64,000 bases of DNA from Armatimonadota bacterium (GTDB taxonomy: Bacteria; Armatimonadota; DTGP01; JAKQQT01): the NCBI GenBank assembly GCA_036504095.1, contig DASXVS010000053.1:1-64000 (forward strand), given 5' to 3'. This document shows positions 3,316 to 63,523 of this stretch, one piece after another. The notes below the pieces were generated by a model. That model did no database searches. It was given only the letters and a program-made list of their open reading frames with translations, and was not told the origin of the DNA. A program made the translations under genes and the position numbers. Every line of letters starts with the position of its first letter. The first letter of the stretch is position 1.

Positions 3316-3479
3316 TTCGGTGCTCCCTTCGCTGCTGGCGTGATCCGCATGAATGGTCGTCCCGAAACGGCCTATGGGTCTACGGTTTATGAGTCCCATT
3401 TCGGACCTACCCCCCGCTCGCACGGCTCGCGGAGCACTACCCAAAAAGGATGGGGAACCGGAAGTGGCAGCGATGAACG

Positions 3480-3600
3480 AGGAGCGACGCGGCGATACGG
3501 TGACGCGGCGACGCGGCGAGGGGGCGACACGGTGACGCGGCGACGCGGCGAGGGGGCGAGGAGGCGAGGGGGCGAGGGGGCGATGCGGGCGAGGGCGCCC
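3480..3600. repeat. GC-rich minisatellite (GGCGACGCGGC / GAGGGGGC units)
   Basis: Tandem, imperfect units based on CGGTGACGCGGCGACG and GGCGAGGGGGCGAG. Related units occur just before 24341. Part of a 570-bp gap (3316-3886) with no gene. The rest of the gap holds degenerate CCTCCGTG / CCTCCGCG units (about 3660-3745) and the two elements listed next. Confidence 0.75.
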
Positions 3601-12340: not shown

Positions 12341-12760
12341 ATGGCCGGAACAAATCCCTATATCAAGACCGCGGAGTATGAGACCGCCACGAAGCCGTAC
12401 AAGATCACTATCGTCCACGACGGGGAGTCGAAGACGCTGGAGATCGATCCGGCGCAAATCCCCTTCACACGCACCGGGCTGCCGGGCAGCATTCTGGACA
12501 TCTGCGAGGGGCACAACATCGACATCGAGCACACGTGCGGCGGGGTGTGCGCGTGCAGCACCTGCCACGTGATCGTGAGGCACGGCTTCGAGTCGTGCAA
12601 CGAGCAGACCGACGACGAACTGGACCAGTTGGAGGAAGCGCCGGGAATCACGATCTACAGCCGCCTGGGCTGTCAGTGCGTTCCCAACGGCGAGCAGGAC
12701 CTGGTGGTCGAGATCCCGTCCTGGAACCGGAACGCGGTGAAAGAGACGCCGCACGGGTAG
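12341..12760 (+). CDS. [2Fe-2S] ferredoxin, adrenodoxin/Isc type
   Basis: 139 residues. Cluster ligands are in IEHTCGGVCACSTCHVIV and the later LGCQCVPNGEQDLVVEIP, giving the C-x5-C-x2-C...C pattern of Isc/adrenodoxin-type ferredoxins. The acidic helix NEQTDDELDQLEEAPG is where electron partners dock in relatives. An N-terminal extension of about 20 residues (AGTNPYIKTAEYETATK) is unusual. Cytosolic electron carrier, likely in Fe-S assembly or for an oxygenase. No isc genes are nearby. GGAGA precedes ATG at 12341. Confidence 0.92.
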   Translation: MAGTNPYIKTAEYETATKPYKITIVHDGESKTLEIDPAQIPFTRTGLPGSILDICEGHNIDIEHTCGGVCACSTCHVIVRHGFESCNEQTDDELDQLEEAPGITIYSRLGCQCVPNGEQDLVVEIPSWNRNAVKETPHG

Positions 12761-12884
12761 GGCTGAGGGCTGAGGGCTGAGGGCTGAGGGCTGAGGACTG
12801 AGGGCTGAGGGCTGAGGGCTGAGGGGCGAGGGCTGAGGGCTGAGGGCTGAGGGGCGAGGGCTGAGGGGCGAGGGCTGAGGGGTG
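12761..12884. repeat. Heptamer array GGGCTGA
   Basis: About 17 tandem copies of GGGCTGA with a few GGACTGA and GGGGCGA variants, starting at the ferredoxin stop codon. A shorter run of the same unit lies at about 402-432. Not a CRISPR: there are no spacers. Confidence 0.9.
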
Positions 12885-12886
12885 TA

Positions 12887-13012
12887 GTGGCCCGGTCAAC
12901 CAAACAGGCAATTTGGCCTCATTACAGCGCTGAAGTGAAGGCGCGGGCAGCCCTGCAGGCGATCCAGGGTCAGCAGACGGCGAACGAGATCGTCGGCGAA
13001 ATCGGGATTCAC
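12887..13012 (+). pseudogene. IS3-family transposase OrfA remnant
   Basis: From a GTG, MARSTKQAIWPHYSAEVKAR then AALQAIQGQQTANEIVGEIG matches the start of IS3-family OrfA proteins (F-S-x-E-x-K-x-x-x-A-L-x-A-I-x-G). After IHGVRGVLKSRR the reading falls apart and no OrfB or inverted ends are seen. It abuts the heptamer array. The gap to 13336 holds no other gene. Confidence 0.6.
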
Positions 13013-16887: not shown

Positions 16888-17127
16888 TGTGCGTCTCCTT
16901 TCGAGTGTAGGGCGCAGCGCCGCCCGGCGTGGGCTCCGTGCGCCGCCAATGGACAGTGGGATTATCGGGACGCCCCGCCGCGCCATTTAGGGGTCTCCGC
17001 CATGTTCCGCCGGGTGAGGGCATTGCGCGCAATGGGTTGTTCCTTTGCGCCGCGTCGCCGTTATCATGAACTCACGAGATTTTCTAGCGGCCACGCGCTG
17101 CGTGCCTATAAAAGTGTTGGTGATATT

Positions 17128-19395
17128 ATGCCTCTGAAGGAAGAACTGCCGGCGTCGCTGGCTGCGCTGCTGCCCCAACCTGCCCATCCCGACGGCGACC
17201 TACGCGTGAGCGTTGAGGCCGACCTGGATGGGGACGGTAACTATGCCCGCCGCTGGCTCGCCGTCACGGGCGACCGCCTTTTCGTCATGGAGCCGGATCA
17301 TGGCGATCCCCGCCTGACGTTGGACCTGCCGCTCGCCTCCATCTCCGAAGTCAAGGCCCAGCCGCAGGTGGGTTCCGGCGTGCTGGAAGCCACCGTGGAC
17401 GGGCTGCCCGTCGAGTTGATGCGCTACAGCAACGCGATGGTCGGCAAGTTCATGCGTGTCGCCAAGTTTCTGGACGCGGATGTCAAAGGCGAGGAATCGC
17501 CGCCGGCGGCGGAACTGGAGGAACGCCCGCGTTGCTCCAAGTGCCATCGCATCCTGCCGGAAAACACGCGTGTCTGCCCGGCATGCCTCGACCGCAAGCA
17601 AGTCGCCCGGAGGCTGGCCCGGTATTTCGCCCCTTACAAGTGGACGGCGCTGGGCATCTGCATCCTCATGCTCTGCGGCACGGCGTTGGAATTGCTGCCC
17701 GGATACCTGAACAAACCACTGCTGGACAAGGCGCTTGTACCGGGGTTCGCGGCCGCGCGTTCCGGCGCCGGCCCCGGCGAGTTGCACAAATACGGCGTGA
17801 TCCTGGGCCAGCTCATCTGCGTACTGATCGCCGCCCGCCTCGTCGCATTGGTTATCAACGTCTTCCGTGGCCGTGCCGTCGCGTTCGTGGGAGGGCGCAT
17901 CACGTACGACGTACGGACCCAGCTCTACCGCGCGCTGCAACGGCTGAGCCTGTCGTTCTACGATAAACGCCAGAGCGGAAGCATCCTCTCCCGCGTCACG
18001 CAGGACACCCGCGAACTCCAGAACGCCCTCATCGACGGCCTCCAGTTCTTCGTGGTCAACATCCTCGTCATCGTCGCGATCATCGTGTGGCTCCTGGTAC
18101 TCGACTGGAGATTGGCGCTGCTGGTCCTCATCCCCACGCCGATCGTCATCGCCTGCTCGCTGTTCTTCTGGCGCCGCATCCACGCAATGTTCCGCAGGTA
18201 TTTCCACGTGAACAGCCGGATGGTGGGAACGCTGGCAGACGTGCTGGCCGGCATTCGGGTTGTGAAAGCCTTCGCGCAGGAAGAACGCGAAGTGGTCCGG
18301 TTCGACCAGAAGGTGGACGCCGTTTACGAGGCGATTGTGAAAGCGGAGCGCACGTGGGCGACGTTCTTCCCAATCCTGACATTCGTGACGATCTCCGGGT
18401 CGTTCATCGTCTGGTATTTCGGCGGCCTCAAGGTCATCCGCGGAGACATCACGCTTGGAACGTTCATGTCGTTCCTTTTCTTCGTGGGGATGTTCTTCGG
18501 TCCACTGCAGTTCATCACGCGCATCACGGACTGGCTCTCGCGCGCGCTGACCGCCACGGAACGCATCTTTGAGATCCTGGACGCACAGCCGGAAGTGGCG
18601 GACAGCTCGGACTCGGTCGCCATGCCGCACATCCGCGGTGACGTGACGCTGAACGACATCTCGTTCGGCTACGACAAGAACAAGCCCGTCCTTAAGGGCG
18701 TGAGCCTCGACGTGAAGGCGGGCGAGATGATCGGCCTCTGCGGGCACAGCGGCGCCGGCAAGAGCACCATCATCAACCTCATCAACCGGTTCTACGACGT
18801 GGACAGCGGTAGCATCAAGGTTGATGGCGTGGATCTGCGCAAGATCAAGATGAACGACCTCAGCCGCCAGATCGGCATCGTGCTGCAGGAGCCGTTCCTC
18901 TTCACGGGCAGCATCCACGAGAACATCAGTTACGCCAAGCCGGATGCCACCCGGGAGGAAGTGATGCGCGCCGCCAAAGCCGCCAATGCCCACGAGTTCA
19001 TCCTAAAATTCCCGGACGGCTACGATACGCGCGTCGGCGAACGCGGGCAGACGCTTTCGGGAGGGGAACGCCAGCGCATCAGCATCGCCCGCGCTATCCT
19101 CCACGACCCGCGCATCCTGATCCTGGACGAGGCGACCTCCAGCGTGGACACGGAGACGGAAAAACAGATACAGGAAGCGATCCAGCGACTCATCACGGGC
19201 CGCACCACCTTCGCCATCGCCCACCGCCTCAGCACACTCCGGGAGGCCGACCGCCTCCTGGTTCTCAAGGAGGGCAAGGTCGCCGAAGTCGGCACCCACG
19301 CCGAACTGCTGCTGAAGCCCGACGGCGAATTCCGAAAACTGGTGGAGATGCAGACCGAGATCAACCAGCTAACCACCCTGGCCGTGGGCGGGTGA
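17128..19395 (+). CDS. ABC exporter with N-terminal PH-like domain and zinc ribbon
   Basis: 755 residues. Unusual N-terminus: a PH-like beta domain (about 25-110, YARRWLAVTGDRLFVMEPDH) and a four-Cys ribbon CSKCHRILPENTRVCPAC near 133-152. Then a six-helix exporter membrane domain and a nucleotide-binding domain with GHSGAGKST, LSGGERQRISIARAIL, LILDEATSSVDTETE and switch AHRLST. Half-transporter, so it works as a dimer; substrate unknown. ATG at 17128 is chosen because MPLKEELPASLAALLP starts folded sequence. Its last 20 codons are repeated downstream at 19945 and, degraded, at 20544. Confidence 0.9.
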   Translation: MPLKEELPASLAALLPQPAHPDGDLRVSVEADLDGDGNYARRWLAVTGDRLFVMEPDHGDPRLTLDLPLASISEVKAQPQVGSGVLEATVDGLPVELMRYSNAMVGKFMRVAKFLDADVKGEESPPAAELEERPRCSKCHRILPENTRVCPACLDRKQVARRLARYFAPYKWTALGICILMLCGTALELLPGYLNKPLLDKALVPGFAAARSGAGPGELHKYGVILGQLICVLIAARLVALVINVFRGRAVAFVGGRITYDVRTQLYRALQRLSLSFYDKRQSGSILSRVTQDTRELQNALIDGLQFFVVNILVIVAIIVWLLVLDWRLALLVLIPTPIVIACSLFFWRRIHAMFRRYFHVNSRMVGTLADVLAGIRVVKAFAQEEREVVRFDQKVDAVYEAIVKAERTWATFFPILTFVTISGSFIVWYFGGLKVIRGDITLGTFMSFLFFVGMFFGPLQFITRITDWLSRALTATERIFEILDAQPEVADSSDSVAMPHIRGDVTLNDISFGYDKNKPVLKGVSLDVKAGEMIGLCGHSGAGKSTIINLINRFYDVDSGSIKVDGVDLRKIKMNDLSRQIGIVLQEPFLFTGSIHENISYAKPDATREEVMRAAKAANAHEFILKFPDGYDTRVGERGQTLSGGERQRISIARAILHDPRILILDEATSSVDTETEKQIQEAIQRLITGRTTFAIAHRLSTLREADRLLVLKEGKVAEVGTHAELLLKPDGEFRKLVEMQTEINQLTTLAVGG

Positions 19396-19399
19396 GAGG
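19336..19399 (+). repeat. 3' end of the ABC exporter gene, copy 1 (functional)
   Basis: 64 bp covering the last codons (KLVEMQTEINQLTTLAVGG), the TGA stop and four bases beyond. Repeated at 19945-20008 with only four changes: CTG/CTC, GAG/GAA, GTG/GTA and TGA/TAA, all silent. This is the reference copy for the cassette arrangement. Confidence 0.9.
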
Positions 19400-19413
19400 G
19401 GATCGGCCATGGC

Positions 19414-19689
19414 ATATCGATTGAATGGGACACGGACAAAGCAACGCGAAATGTCGCCAAACATGGTGTCCCTTTCGAGGAGGCCTGCACAGTGTTTGGA
19501 GATCCGCTTGAAGTGACGGTTGAAGACGAATCGCATTCTGAGGAAGAGGCAAGGTTCTTCAGTGTCGGCGTATCAGTTTCTGGCCGCCTCCTTGCTGTGT
19601 CATACACGGAACGCTCGGATAGAGTTCGAATACTGAGCGCGAGACTGGCATCGCGCCGTGAACCGAAAGACTATGAAAACCAAAGATGA
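19414..19689 (+). CDS. brnT: BrnT family type II toxin
   Basis: About 90 residues: SIEWDTDKATRNVAKHGVPF, EEACTVFGDPLEVTVEDESH, SEEEARFFSVGVSVSGRLLA, VSYTERSDRVRILSARLASR, REPKDYENQR. This is the full BrnT pattern (RNase-like toxin of RelE fold) and all conserved parts are present. Odd: no ATG, GTG or TTG exists in frame before residue ~27 (GTG at 19492), so translation must use ATA at 19414, ATT at 19420 or another rare codon, unless the gene is crippled. It begins about 20 nt after the exporter stop and overlaps brnA at its end. Confidence 0.8.
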   Translation: MSIEWDTDKATRNVAKHGVPFEEACTVFGDPLEVTVEDESHSEEEARFFSVGVSVSGRLLAVSYTERSDRVRILSARLASRREPKDYENQR

Positions 19690-19897
19690 GATAGGGGTCG
19701 ACGACATCCCCAAGGAGATTGATTTCAATAAAGGAGTGAGGGGAAAGCACCACGTTGAGTATGCGAAAGGCACAAATATCGTACGACTTGACCCGGACGT
19801 CGCTTCCCTCTTTCCCTCTTCCGAAGCAGTCAACACGGCCCTTCGGTTGCTTGCCAGCCTGGCGCGTCAGCAGGTTGGGTCCTCGCCTGCTTCCTGA
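19673..19897 (+). CDS. brnA: BrnA-type antitoxin
   Basis: 74 residues from ATG at 19673 (GTG at 19658 is an alternative). MKTKDEIGVDDIPKEIDFNK, then GVRGKHHVEYAKGTNIVRLD and PDVASLFPSSEAVNTALRLL; the last part is a ribbon-helix-helix DNA-binding/dimerisation unit. It overlaps the brnT end by 17 bp, the normal toxin-first brnTA order, so it probably represses the pair. No separate promoter is evident, so it may be expressed from the exporter transcript. Confidence 0.8.
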   Translation: MKTKDEIGVDDIPKEIDFNKGVRGKHHVEYAKGTNIVRLDPDVASLFPSSEAVNTALRLLASLARQQVGSSPAS

Positions 19898-19944: not shown

Positions 19945-20008
19945 AAACTCGTGGAAATGCAGACCGAGATCAACCAGCTAACCACCCTGGCCGTAGGCGG
20001 GTAAGAGG
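19945..20008 (+). repeat. 3' end of the ABC exporter gene, copy 2 (displaced fragment)
   Basis: 64-bp fragment reading KLVEMQTEINQLTTLAVGG-stop in frame, 60/64 identical to 19336-19399 with only silent differences. Lies 47 bp after brnA and 60 bp before hicB. Not attached to any gene body, so it marks the earlier end of the exporter gene or one brought by the inserted DNA. Confidence 0.9.
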
Positions 20009-20068: not shown

Positions 20069-20278
20069 ATGGAACTGAAAGTTGTGGTCAAACCGGGCGA
20101 AGCCGGTCTCTTCGTTGCCCACATACCTGCGCTCAAAGGCTGCTGGTCGCAAGGTACGACGCGCGAAGAAACGCTACAAAACATACGAGAAGCCGCCGCG
20201 CTCTGGCTTGAGGTGGAGCAGGAAAAGCGCTCTCAACCGCTGACCGGCGCGGCTGAGGCATTCGCGGTCCAGATATGA
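20069..20278 (+). CDS. hicB: HicB family antitoxin
   Basis: 69 residues: MELKVVVKPGEAGLFVAHIP, ALKGCWSQGTTREETLQNIR, EAAALWLEV. This is the classic HicB fold (partial RNase H-like) with the G-C-x-S/T-Q-G-x-T-x-x-E-A/T motif. No separate DNA-binding tail, so a short HicB. GGAGGG precedes the ATG. Overlaps hicA by four bases (ATGA). Confidence 0.92.
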   Translation: MELKVVVKPGEAGLFVAHIPALKGCWSQGTTREETLQNIREAAALWLEVEQEKRSQPLTGAAEAFAVQI

Positions 20279-20505
20279 GCCGGTTGCCTGTTCTGTCGGG
20301 AGCCGATGCCGTTCGGGCATTCGAGCGTGCCGGTTGGGCTGTGGCTCGCCAGCGAGGTAGCCACGTGGTGCTCACAAAACCGGGCCGTTCCGCAAACCTG
20401 TCAGTACCCCAACACCGCCAACTGGACCCCGGCACCCCCCGCGGTTTGATCCACGACTCCGGATTGAGCGTTTCCGCGTTCGCCATTCTCCTCAAAGACC
20501 GGTAG
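20275..20505 (+). CDS. hicA: HicA family mRNA interferase toxin
   Basis: 76 residues. VLSGADAVRAFERAGWAVAR, QRGSHVVLTKPG (catalytic His in GSHVVL), SVPQHRQLDPGTPRGLIHDS and GLSVSAFAILL match HicA along its whole length. It cleaves mRNA; HicB binds and neutralises it. Order hicB-hicA with ATGA overlap. The module is followed after 38 bp by a decayed third copy of the exporter 3' end. Confidence 0.93.
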   Translation: MSRLPVLSGADAVRAFERAGWAVARQRGSHVVLTKPGRSANLSVPQHRQLDPGTPRGLIHDSGLSVSAFAILLKDR

Positions 20506-20543
20506 CCCACAGCGACCGCTGACTCGTCGCACATCTCCAGAGC

Positions 20544-20575
20544 AGATGCAGACCGAGATCTAACAGCTAACCCTC
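20544..20575 (+). repeat. 3' end of the ABC exporter gene, copy 3 (decayed)
   Basis: AGATGCAGACCGAGATC, TAACAGCTAACCCTC: clearly the same segment as 19348-19378 but with small deletions that destroy the frame. Sits just after hicA, so the array reads exporter-copy1-brnTA-copy2-hicBA-copy3. Confidence 0.7.
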
Positions 20576-20869
20576 ATTGCTCACTTCGGGGCATCCCGCT
20601 TTCGCCTATCGAATCCGATGGCGCGTCCCGCCGCGCTGTAAGGATCAGGTACCACCCCCACGCGGCGATGAGCATTCGTCCCAGACGGATTGTGGAGACG
20701 TCCGACCATGGCGGCGTAAAGACGACGTATGCTGCAAGCCGCCCTCCCTCCCATTTTGGCCCACCCTATGCCTGTTTGCCTGGTCCGATAGTACCGTCCT
20801 CACATCCAACCGGTCCCGGAAACGCAGGCACCCCCAGCGACACGTAGAGCGGCACGCACCGACTCGCGG
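20576..20869. other. Gap with no recognisable feature
   Basis: No convincing gene, repeat or RNA is seen between the decayed exporter fragment and the end of the HAF-repeat gene. Confidence 0.6.
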
Positions 20870-61200: not shown

Positions 61201-61297
61201 CTACTGCCACAGCTTCCTATCGAGGCTCCGGTACTGCAACGCTTCGGCCACGTGGGCCGGCGCGATGGACGGGACGTCTGTCATATCTGCGGCGAAC
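61201..61297 (-). pseudogene. Displaced 3' fragment of a comM-like gene
   Basis: On the minus strand it reads EFAADMTDVPSIAPAHVAEA, LQYRSLDRKLWQ-stop. The last 22 residues equal the comM C-terminus except for one (S for D), while the DNA differs at about nine positions, nearly all silent. It starts directly after the stop of the PUR-domain gene (61298-61300) and has no gene body of its own. Confidence 0.85.
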
Positions 61298-61756
61298 TCA
61301 CTTCATCTGTAGTTTTCGCAGCCTGCTCTCAATATCGCGTTCCTGCCGCCCTAACATCGCTGCCACCGAACGAACGCTTTGCCCCTGCTCGTATGCGAGC
61401 CGAAGTCGCGCATCCTCAGTTTCCGTCCATGGCTCGTAGGCGCGAGAACACATTGATCGAGTATCCATTCGTCTGGGCTCACGGTTTGGTTCATCCATGC
61501 TCGCGTCAATAATGTGTGGGTCACCAAGCACGGCCATTGCGCGCGTGAGCGCCCAGCAAAGGTCGGGAGCGTGCTCTTCGAATATGAACACACCTCGCCG
61601 TTCCTCCTCGTCTCGGCGGGCGCGGCGCACATCCACCATTCGCAGGTAGCGCGAGCCAGTCGAAGCCTCGCGCACTTCTAGACGGTATTCGTGACTTCCC
61701 CCGCAAATCTCCGTTTCAAACAGCAATGGATTTGAATTCGGGAAAGGGCTACTCAT
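61298..61756 (-). CDS. PUR-domain (DUF3276-like) protein with C-terminal SANT-like helix
   Basis: 152 residues; AAGGGAG ribosome site before ATG at 61756, only 23 bp after the comM stop. LLFETEICGGSHEYRLEVRE, YLRMVDVRRARRDEEERRGV and FIFEEHAPDLCWALTRAMAV match the PUR-alpha-type nucleic-acid-binding fold. The tail PWTETEDARLRLAYEQGQSV, RSVAAMLGRQERDIESRLRK resembles a Myb/SANT helix set, so it may bind DNA by two means. It is a cargo gene inserted between comM and an extra comM 3' end. Confidence 0.7.
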   Translation of the reverse strand: MSSPFPNSNPLLFETEICGGSHEYRLEVREASTGSRYLRMVDVRRARRDEEERRGVFIFEEHAPDLCWALTRAMAVLGDPHIIDASMDEPNREPRRMDTRSMCSRAYEPWTETEDARLRLAYEQGQSVRSVAAMLGRQERDIESRLRKLQMK

Positions 61757-61779
61757 AAAAGTCACTCCCTTCGCGCTAT

Positions 61780-63321
61780 CTACTGCCACAACTTCCTATC
61801 AAGGCTCCGGTATTGCAGGGCCTCAGCCACGTGGGCGGGGGCGATGTCCGGCAGGGCCTCGAGGTCCGCGATGGTACGGGCCAGTTTTAGCACGCGGTCG
61901 TAGGCTCTTGCCGAGAGCGCCAACTGGTTGATGGCGGCGCGCAGGAGGCTCTGGGTGGCATCGTCCACAATGCAGAACTTGCGCAGGTGCTTGCTGGTCA
62001 TCTGGGCGTTGGTGTAGATGCCCAGGCCGGCGAAGCGCTCGCCCTGGATATCGCGCGCCTTCTGCACGCGGACGCGAATCTCCTTGCTCGCCGGCCCCGT
62101 GCCGCCCTTCTGGACCATCTCCTCCTGCTTCAAGCGCGGGACCTCGATGTGGATATCGAGGCGGTCGAGAAGCGGACCGCTAAGCCGCTGGCGGTACTTC
62201 TGGATCTGGAACGGGTTGCATGTGCACGCGCGCATCGTGTCACCGTGGTGACCGCACGGGCACGGATTCGCCGCGCCGATGAACATAACGCGCGCCGGGT
62301 AGGCGATGCTGCCAGCGATGCGGGCTATCGTGACGACGCCGTCCTCGAGAGGTTGGCGCAGCATCTCGAGGATATCGCGGCGGAACTCCGGCAACTCGTC
62401 CAGGAACAGCAAGCCGTTGTGTGCGAGACTGACCTCACCCGGCTTGGGATACGACCCACCGCCGACCAACCCCGCGTACGAGATCGTGTGGTGCGGCGCG
62501 CGGAACGGGCGCGTTGTGAGCAAGGCGGTGTTGGATGGCAATTGGCCCGCGATAGAGTAGATCTTCGTGACTTCCAGCGCCTCGTCCAGCGTAAGGGGAG
62601 GCAGGATGGTCGGCAAGCGCCGCGCCAGCATCGTCTTGCCGGATCCCGGAGGACCAACCATCAGACAGTTGTGACCGCCCGCCGCCGCCACCTCCAGCGC
62701 GCGCTTGGCGTGGTCCTGACCCTTCACGTCGTTGAAATCGACCTCGAAGATGGGGTCTTCCAGGTCGCTGAACGGCGACGGTCCGCTGAACGGCTCCGCG
62801 CCGACGCCGTCGTTCAGCAGTCCGACGACCTCCGCCAGCGACTCCACCGGGTAGATCTCGACGTCTGTGACGACGGCGGCTTCATGTGCGTTCGCTGTGG
62901 GCACGATCAGGCGGCGCATGCCGGCGGTCTTTGTGCCGAGCGCGATCGGCAGCACGCCGGACACGGGACGCACGGCGCCATCGAGCGCAAGCTCACCAAT
63001 GAGCACGGTGTCCTTCAGAGCGAGGCGTTCGATCTGACCGGATGCCGCCAGCAGGCCGCATGCGATGGGGAGATCCAGGCCGGGCCCTTCCTTGCGCACG
63101 TCGGCGGGCGCGAGGTTCACCGTGATACGCTTATCCGGAAACGCGAGGCCGGTATTGCGGATGGCGGAGCGCACGCGCTCGCGGGCTTCCTGGACCGCCG
63201 TGTCGGGGAGGCCGACGATGGGGAACTGGCCGGCCATGCCGCGGCCAACGTCCACTTCCACCTCAACGAGATACGCGTCTATGCCGTGAACCGCCGCGGA
63301 GAACGCTTTCGCAAGAGCCAT
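61780..63321 (-). CDS. comM: YifB/ComM family Mg chelatase-like AAA+ ATPase
   Basis: 513 residues. N-terminal ChlI-like part (VEVDVGRGMAGQFPIVGLPD, ITVNLAPADVRKEGPGLDLP, IGELALDGAVRPVSGVLPIA), AAA+ core (MVGPPGSGKTMLARRLPTIL, FRAPHHTISYAGLVGGGSYP, GLLFLDELPEFRRDILEMLR, RVMFIGAANPCPCGHHGD) and C-terminal part with LSARAYDRVLKLARTIADLE. ComM is the hexameric branch-migration helicase of natural transformation. ATG at 63321 with AAGGAG. The gene end is duplicated at 61201-61297. Confidence 0.96.
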   Translation of the reverse strand: MALAKAFSAAVHGIDAYLVEVEVDVGRGMAGQFPIVGLPDTAVQEARERVRSAIRNTGLAFPDKRITVNLAPADVRKEGPGLDLPIACGLLAASGQIERLALKDTVLIGELALDGAVRPVSGVLPIALGTKTAGMRRLIVPTANAHEAAVVTDVEIYPVESLAEVVGLLNDGVGAEPFSGPSPFSDLEDPIFEVDFNDVKGQDHAKRALEVAAAGGHNCLMVGPPGSGKTMLARRLPTILPPLTLDEALEVTKIYSIAGQLPSNTALLTTRPFRAPHHTISYAGLVGGGSYPKPGEVSLAHNGLLFLDELPEFRRDILEMLRQPLEDGVVTIARIAGSIAYPARVMFIGAANPCPCGHHGDTMRACTCNPFQIQKYRQRLSGPLLDRLDIHIEVPRLKQEEMVQKGGTGPASKEIRVRVQKARDIQGERFAGLGIYTNAQMTSKHLRKFCIVDDATQSLLRAAINQLALSARAYDRVLKLARTIADLEALPDIAPAHVAEALQYRSLDRKLWQ

Positions 63322-63523
63322 GGGGCTGTGCTCCTTCGCCGTGCCGTCGTTATGGGAATGGTACGCCGAGGGGGTGGAAGCTGTCAAGCGAAGGGCTGGC
63401 AGCGGAGCCAACATGCCTCCGCCCGCGATGCCTCGCCACAGTCAGCGAGAGCCGGGCGGAGTATCGCCCGGATCTCTTCAATGCGCCCGGCGGACGGGCC
63501 GCCGCCATCCCGTAGGTGGTGCG

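Follow-up and report, generated by a model that had tools for sequence, protein, structure and literature searches.

comM Locus and Exporter Array of the Window

The window, i.e., the whole stretch of 64,000 nucleotides from an Armatimonadota genome that was analyzed here, carries close to its end an intact comM gene (61780..63348, minus strand), whose product matches the Pfam families Mg_chelatase (E 2.5e-96), ChlI, and Mg_chelatase_C. Behind it, on the same strand, lies an open reading frame of 152 codons (61298..61756), which starts at position 61756, 23 nt past the comM stop codon, and ends with its own stop codon at 61300-61298. The 97 bp directly following this frame (61201..61297, minus strand) correspond to the 3′ end of comM with its stop codon included (tblastn E 2e-9). 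The assignment of this segment as a displaced comM end rests on a 72-nt direct repeat with 85% identity and on a comparison of codons. Over 22 residues, the intact and the displaced end differ by nine silent changes and one amino-acid change, and over the last 21 codons by nine silent and no amino-acid differences. The similarity of the two copies stops at the stop codon. In the following, the intact gene of such an arrangement is called the anchor and the inserted genes are called the cargo.

The cargo at comM was identified as a PUR-fold (DUF3276-like) protein with a C-terminal Myb/SANT-like domain on the basis of its open reading frame, its homologues (35 and 30% identical) and a structure model. 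A Pfam search with the protein from the window gave no match to DUF3276; its homologue from genome G004 passes as DUF3276 in Pfam. The AlphaFold model of the cargo protein matches the Borrelia Pur-alpha structure 3nm7 (Foldseek E 5.8e-5) and comprises a PUR fold followed by a Myb/SANT-like helical domain.

A second locus of the window, located on the plus strand, has an intact ABC exporter gene as anchor (17002..19395), which was recognized as an open reading frame with a 73% identical orthologue in G001. It is followed by a gene for a BrnT toxin (19408..19689; Pfam BrnT_toxin, E 2.7e-26), a gene for a presumed BrnA-type antitoxin, named by its position only and without Pfam match (19673..19897), and a second copy of the exporter 3′ end (19945..20008; 94% identity, with three of three codon differences being silent). 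Further downstream, genes for a HicB-like antitoxin (20069..20278; Pfam HicB_lk_antitox, E 2.9e-7) and a HicA toxin (20275..20505; Pfam HicA_toxin, E 4.7e-13) precede a third and most decayed copy of the exporter end (20534..20597; 61% identity to the first copy, and recognized in a view of the junctions).

These results agree with the initial annotation of the window in several respects. The layout described for the comM locus (comM, a spacer of 23 bp, a PUR-domain gene and 97 bp encoding the comM C-terminus) is exact to the base, the 22-residue fragment does show one amino-acid change next to the roughly nine silent ones reported, and the exporter, the BrnT gene with its presumed antitoxin, the exporter 3′ end, the hicBA genes and the decayed exporter 3′ end follow each other in the order claimed. 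The PUR label of the cargo protein is correct as a distant fold, given the DUF3276 match of the G004 homologue and the match of the model to Pur-alpha.

At positions 19393-19420, the BrnT reading frame lies in frame behind the exporter stop codon and has no ATG at the expected start; an alternative start codon may be in use, or the gene may have lost its own start. The window additionally contains short-unit tandem arrays at 12731-12905 and 3476-3588, with 7-nt GAGGGCT-like and 8-nt GCGACGCG-like units.

Occurrence in the Genome, the Phylum and Other Phyla

The same layout was found at over a dozen further loci in the phylum. Displaced 3′ ends were observed for comM in three other genera, for ilvD, an ilvH-like gene, a formate-dehydrogenase-like gene, mfd, and a DUF1638 gene, and mirror-image cases with a displaced 5′ end for uvrB and for comM of a genus of the same class (G002). 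The names uvrB, ilvD, ilvH-like and formate-dehydrogenase-like were assigned by reading the sequences rather than from database matches and are presumptive. Across the loci, most of the inserts are toxin-antitoxin modules. At comM of the three other genera, the cargo consists of HicAB (G006), of a GIY-YIG nuclease (G047), and of a Y1 transposase followed by HicAB (G027), and the mirror layout at the 5′ end of comM in G002 encloses a PIN-domain VapBC-like pair. A rule restricting the layout to 3′ ends was dropped because of the 5′-end cases at uvrB and at comM of G002. The statement of the initial annotation that all parts lie on one strand fails as a rule as well, since the inserts at mfd and at the G007 gene are oriented antisense to the host gene.

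A scan for displaced gene ends covered 1.06 Mb of the window genome (G000; about 23% of the assembly) with 714 open reading frames of at least 150 aa, obtained by simple ORF calls. For five of the 714, a displaced 3′ end was found downstream on the same strand, namely for comM, the exporter, an integrase with MNT/HEPN cargo, mfd, and the DUF1638 gene. Other geometries were represented only by paralogues, copies at contig ends, a recurring dockerin-like tail or matches of 15-17 residues. The displaced gene ends in this genome are not due to chance. When four of these loci (comM, exporter, mfd, and DUF1638) were tested in the sister genus, none of them had a displaced end, which was counted in favor of the recombination model presented below. 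Among comM loci of other phyla, one of 71 was a similar case.

Some of these loci show additional features. The integrase locus on contig C15 of G000 (L069, 266-1138 and 8701-10694) contains the integrase, the MNT/HEPN genes and the displaced integrase 3′ end, and a second, 54% identical integrase is encoded on the same contig. This case may have a different origin, since related integrases share its contig. At uvrB (L264, contig C31 of G000, about 60.6-62.0 kb), stacked displaced 5′ ends include promoter-like sequence, with HicAB and a 142-aa ORF located between them and the intact gene. Furthermore, comM is apparently struck more often than other genes, as a rough comparison gives five cases in about 50 genomes (L006, L022, L024, L029 and the window) vs. 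roughly six loci per 1 Mb in G000.

In a survey that did not start from the comM finding, HicA and BrnT genes, and these two toxin families only, were sampled across the phylum. Direct repeats were present on both sides of the module at 11 of 56 loci and inverted repeats at none (0/56); in a control in which the upstream flank of one locus was paired with the downstream flank of another, 2 of 224 pairs matched. According to a stricter test at the protein level, 9 of 95 modules have an intact gene on one side and, on the other, a displaced copy of the terminus with which that gene faces them (mismatched-flank control: 0/142). Two of these nine loci, comM of G027 and the exporter of the window, were already known, and the others include uvrB of the window genome (5′ end, two stacked inserts), ilvD, the ilvH-like gene and the formate-dehydrogenase-like gene. 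For other phyla, direct DNA repeats were found to flank 7 of 30 HicA loci (L321-L350), and the protein-level test gave matches for 5 of 47, none of them located, in our judgement, at a recognizable gene end and none therefore counted. Some of the repeats at HicA loci outside the phylum may belong to other repeat families or cassette sites. The recurrence in the phylum, the scan of 714 open reading frames and the HicA/BrnT survey all uphold the earlier suggestion that a general process, rather than chance, underlies the layout.

Divergence Between Intact and Displaced Copies

If a terminus were copied on the spot, with the intact copy drifting silently only and the displaced copy drifting neutrally, about 41% of the differences between the two would be expected to be silent. 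Synonymous differences amounted to 67 of 93 in nine pairs and to 30 of 39 in six new pairs, which had been found independently via toxin genes or flanks. The pooled value of 97/132 vs. the expected proportion corresponds to a p of about 3e-14. This excess implies that both copies were functional alleles for most of the time over which they diverged, which would most simply be understood if they stemmed from different lineages. Considered alone, mfd showed no synonymous excess, and this was counted against the recombination model.

The copies cease to be similar at the stop codon or close to it and, for comM of G002, at the start codon. Such an edge at the coding limit is as expected when conservation between a donor and a recipient is confined to coding sequence. 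In the comM repeat of G027, about 120 identical nt are followed by a stretch touching the insert that holds every difference, which would fit a short donor tract remaining from a crossover. With the sister genus as outgroup, the displaced copy of comM agrees with the outgroup at seven sites and the intact copy at two. The corresponding numbers (displaced:intact) are 0:2 for the exporter and 4:7 for mfd, a direction opposite to that of comM, which was likewise counted against the recombination model.

In stacked arrays, the older copies are located farther out, with 94 and then 61% identity for the exporter and 95 and then 59% (protein level) for comM of G027. The short comM fragments comprise about 26-29 residues in G000, G006, and G047 and about 60 in G027, i.e., the crossover position is not fixed; the junctions also vary among events. 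The protein sequence of the anchor terminus is unchanged at comM, ilvD, uvrB, mfd, the exporter, and others. The short inserts consist of one or two small genes each, among which there was no integrase gene and, in one case, a Y1 transposase.

Proposed Mechanism and Alternative Explanations

From these patterns we infer, with a fair degree of confidence, that such loci record one-sided homologous recombination with the DNA of a related lineage, a process akin to homology-facilitated illegitimate recombination (HFIR), in which integration proceeds by homology at one end and by illegitimate joining at the other (PMC3240628). The incoming DNA would have contained the comM 3′ end of the donor with the PUR gene beyond it. 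Exchange anchored by comM homology would have created an intact gene now ending in donor sequence, while the far, non-homologous end would have been rejoined inside the comM 3′ end of the recipient, whose original terminus would thereby have been left behind as the displaced fragment. Repeated events at one anchor would stack cassettes, the newest adjoining the intact gene and older fragments lying farther out, and a finished cassette with gene homology on both sides could be spread by ordinary double crossover. The prevalence of toxin-antitoxin cargo may be linked to the ease with which an insert between direct repeats loops out, a loss that addictive cargo would resist; that addiction is the reason for this type of cargo is our own supposition.

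The similarity to HFIR lies in the joining of one end via related, diverged DNA, as suggested by the synonymous excess and the G027 mosaic. The difference is that HFIR is known from laboratory transformations and conjugation, whereas here it is deduced from natural scars in which the anchor end is duplicated. In experiments, HFIR is rare and mostly yields deletions, and a duplication by this route needs a second chromosome copy or copying, both being points against the model. For larger duplications, interchromatid joining with repeats has been documented in pneumococcus transformation (PMC3784515). The variety of cargo and anchors without a common recombinase was counted for the recombination model, and the close fit of the inserts to single modules, which leaves less surplus sequence than random donor ends would, was counted against it. 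The initial annotation had likewise considered uptake of related DNA and partly homologous joining, and referred to the competence role of comM and pilT. The joining of DNA from diverged relatives via partial homology is in line with the synonymous excess and the G027 mosaic. The link to competence genes was dropped because most other anchors (uvrB, ilvD, mfd, the exporter, and the formate-dehydrogenase-like gene) are unrelated to competence; any route of entry bringing in DNA of a relative would fit.

The displaced ends might also have been generated locally, by duplication of the terminus at insertion (a very long target duplication or a template switch during replication), with a later allele exchange of the intact gene introducing the silent differences. 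The compact and bounded inserts would suit such a process, as would the 28-40 nt of non-coding DNA that some of the repeats include. The synonymous excess rules this out unless allele exchange is assumed, and with allele exchange the differences in G027 should not cluster in the stretch touching the insert, so that we regard this origin as rather unlikely. That a recombinase acting in cis or in trans inserts cassettes at gene ends, comparable to islands at ssrA or tRNA genes, appears improbable: the short cassettes contain no recombinase, the edges of the fragments differ by gene and event, the anchors have no sequence in common and are also used at their 5′ ends, and the serine recombinases of G000 are encoded on contigs other than that of the window. 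What such elements would explain are the long comM 3′ fragments of G019 directly behind large serine recombinases and the common edge of several G044 fragments, and the ssrA islands of Dehalococcoides are similar in look (PMC3146451).

Two full gene copies would diverge mostly silently as well, and the fragment could then be what is left of a tandem second copy deleted down to its end. The initial annotation had named a full second comM of relatives at this position as evidence against an insertion, but no complete second comM adjoins comM at about 50 loci of the phylum. Moreover, it is always short ends alone that are left, and the foreign cargo would still have to be added, which makes this course of events very improbable. 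The possibility of an assembly chimera of two strains has to be considered because many of the genomes are fragmented drafts and mixed strains differ mostly silently. However, no sequence is common to the parts that meet at a junction, such an artifact could not produce stacked arrays or decayed third copies, and assemblies made independently show the pattern again, with complete modules enclosed; a chimera is therefore extremely unlikely.

The long comM 3′ fragments form a separate class. Fragments of about 500 nt were found directly behind large serine recombinases in G019 (L042, L043, and L044) and, several of them with one common edge, in G044 (L045, L047, L048, and L049). Both genomes belong to genus g19 and represent one lineage, and a case in G033 from another family is doubtful on account of contig breaks. 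This class probably comprises site-specific islands that use comM as their target, comparable to the Dehalococcoides ssrA islands, rather than elements from which the short inserts arose, and it probably constitutes an undescribed family of comM-targeting integrative elements. The idea that the short inserts are remnants of such comM-targeting serine-recombinase elements was abandoned because the fragments of the latter are about 500 nt long and several have a fixed edge.

Relation to Known Systems and Significance

Taken together, the layout resembles the displacement arrays of T6SS and Rhs loci, but is found at housekeeping genes. In Vibrio T6SS clusters, older modules are shifted outward as new ones are added next to a conserved anchor, and an explanation by HFIR has been proposed for the stacked immunity genes (PMC5361080). 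Sequential stacking with the older remnants outermost is shared by these clusters, by rhs C-terminal displacement and by the exporter and G027 arrays. The displaced parts of the T6SS/Rhs systems are toxin ends and immunity genes, whereas the anchors described here are housekeeping genes unchanged in function, used at either end, and their cargo comprises toxin-antitoxin modules and other small genes.

Neisseria minimal mobile elements carry varied small cargo at one place between conserved genes and are spread via flanking homology. The varied small cargo at one site is a feature in common with the present loci; these elements are not known to be defined by displaced gene ends. The ssrA islands of Dehalococcoides form tandem series behind a single gene, and a repeat of this gene’s 3′ end borders each of them (PMC3146451). 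They have a fixed crossover and an integration module, in contrast to the short cassettes, which possess neither, and the comM elements of G019 fit this type better than the short cassettes do. With regard to integrons, neither the comM nor the exporter arrays had an integrase next to them. Searches of the literature brought up nothing comparable to displaced gene fragments that enclose toxin-antitoxin cargo.

It is conceivable, if rather doubtful, that selfish modules of small size, mainly toxin-antitoxin pairs, are spread through the phylum by a favored or dedicated process, in which conserved gene ends would serve as portable attachment sequences in an integron-like but recombinase-free manner, each module travelling with a copy of the host-gene terminus. 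How toxin-antitoxin modules move when they bring no recombinase with them has so far found little explanation. In the phylum, roughly one HicA/BrnT locus in ten bears a readable scar, which reveals the anchor gene, the sequence in which events took place, and two alleles of that anchor. Such scars make it possible to measure one-sided recombination from genome sequences alone and to test whether addictive cargo survives between unstable repeats. For annotators, this means that short displaced gene ends are to be taken as scars of recombination and not as duplicated genes.
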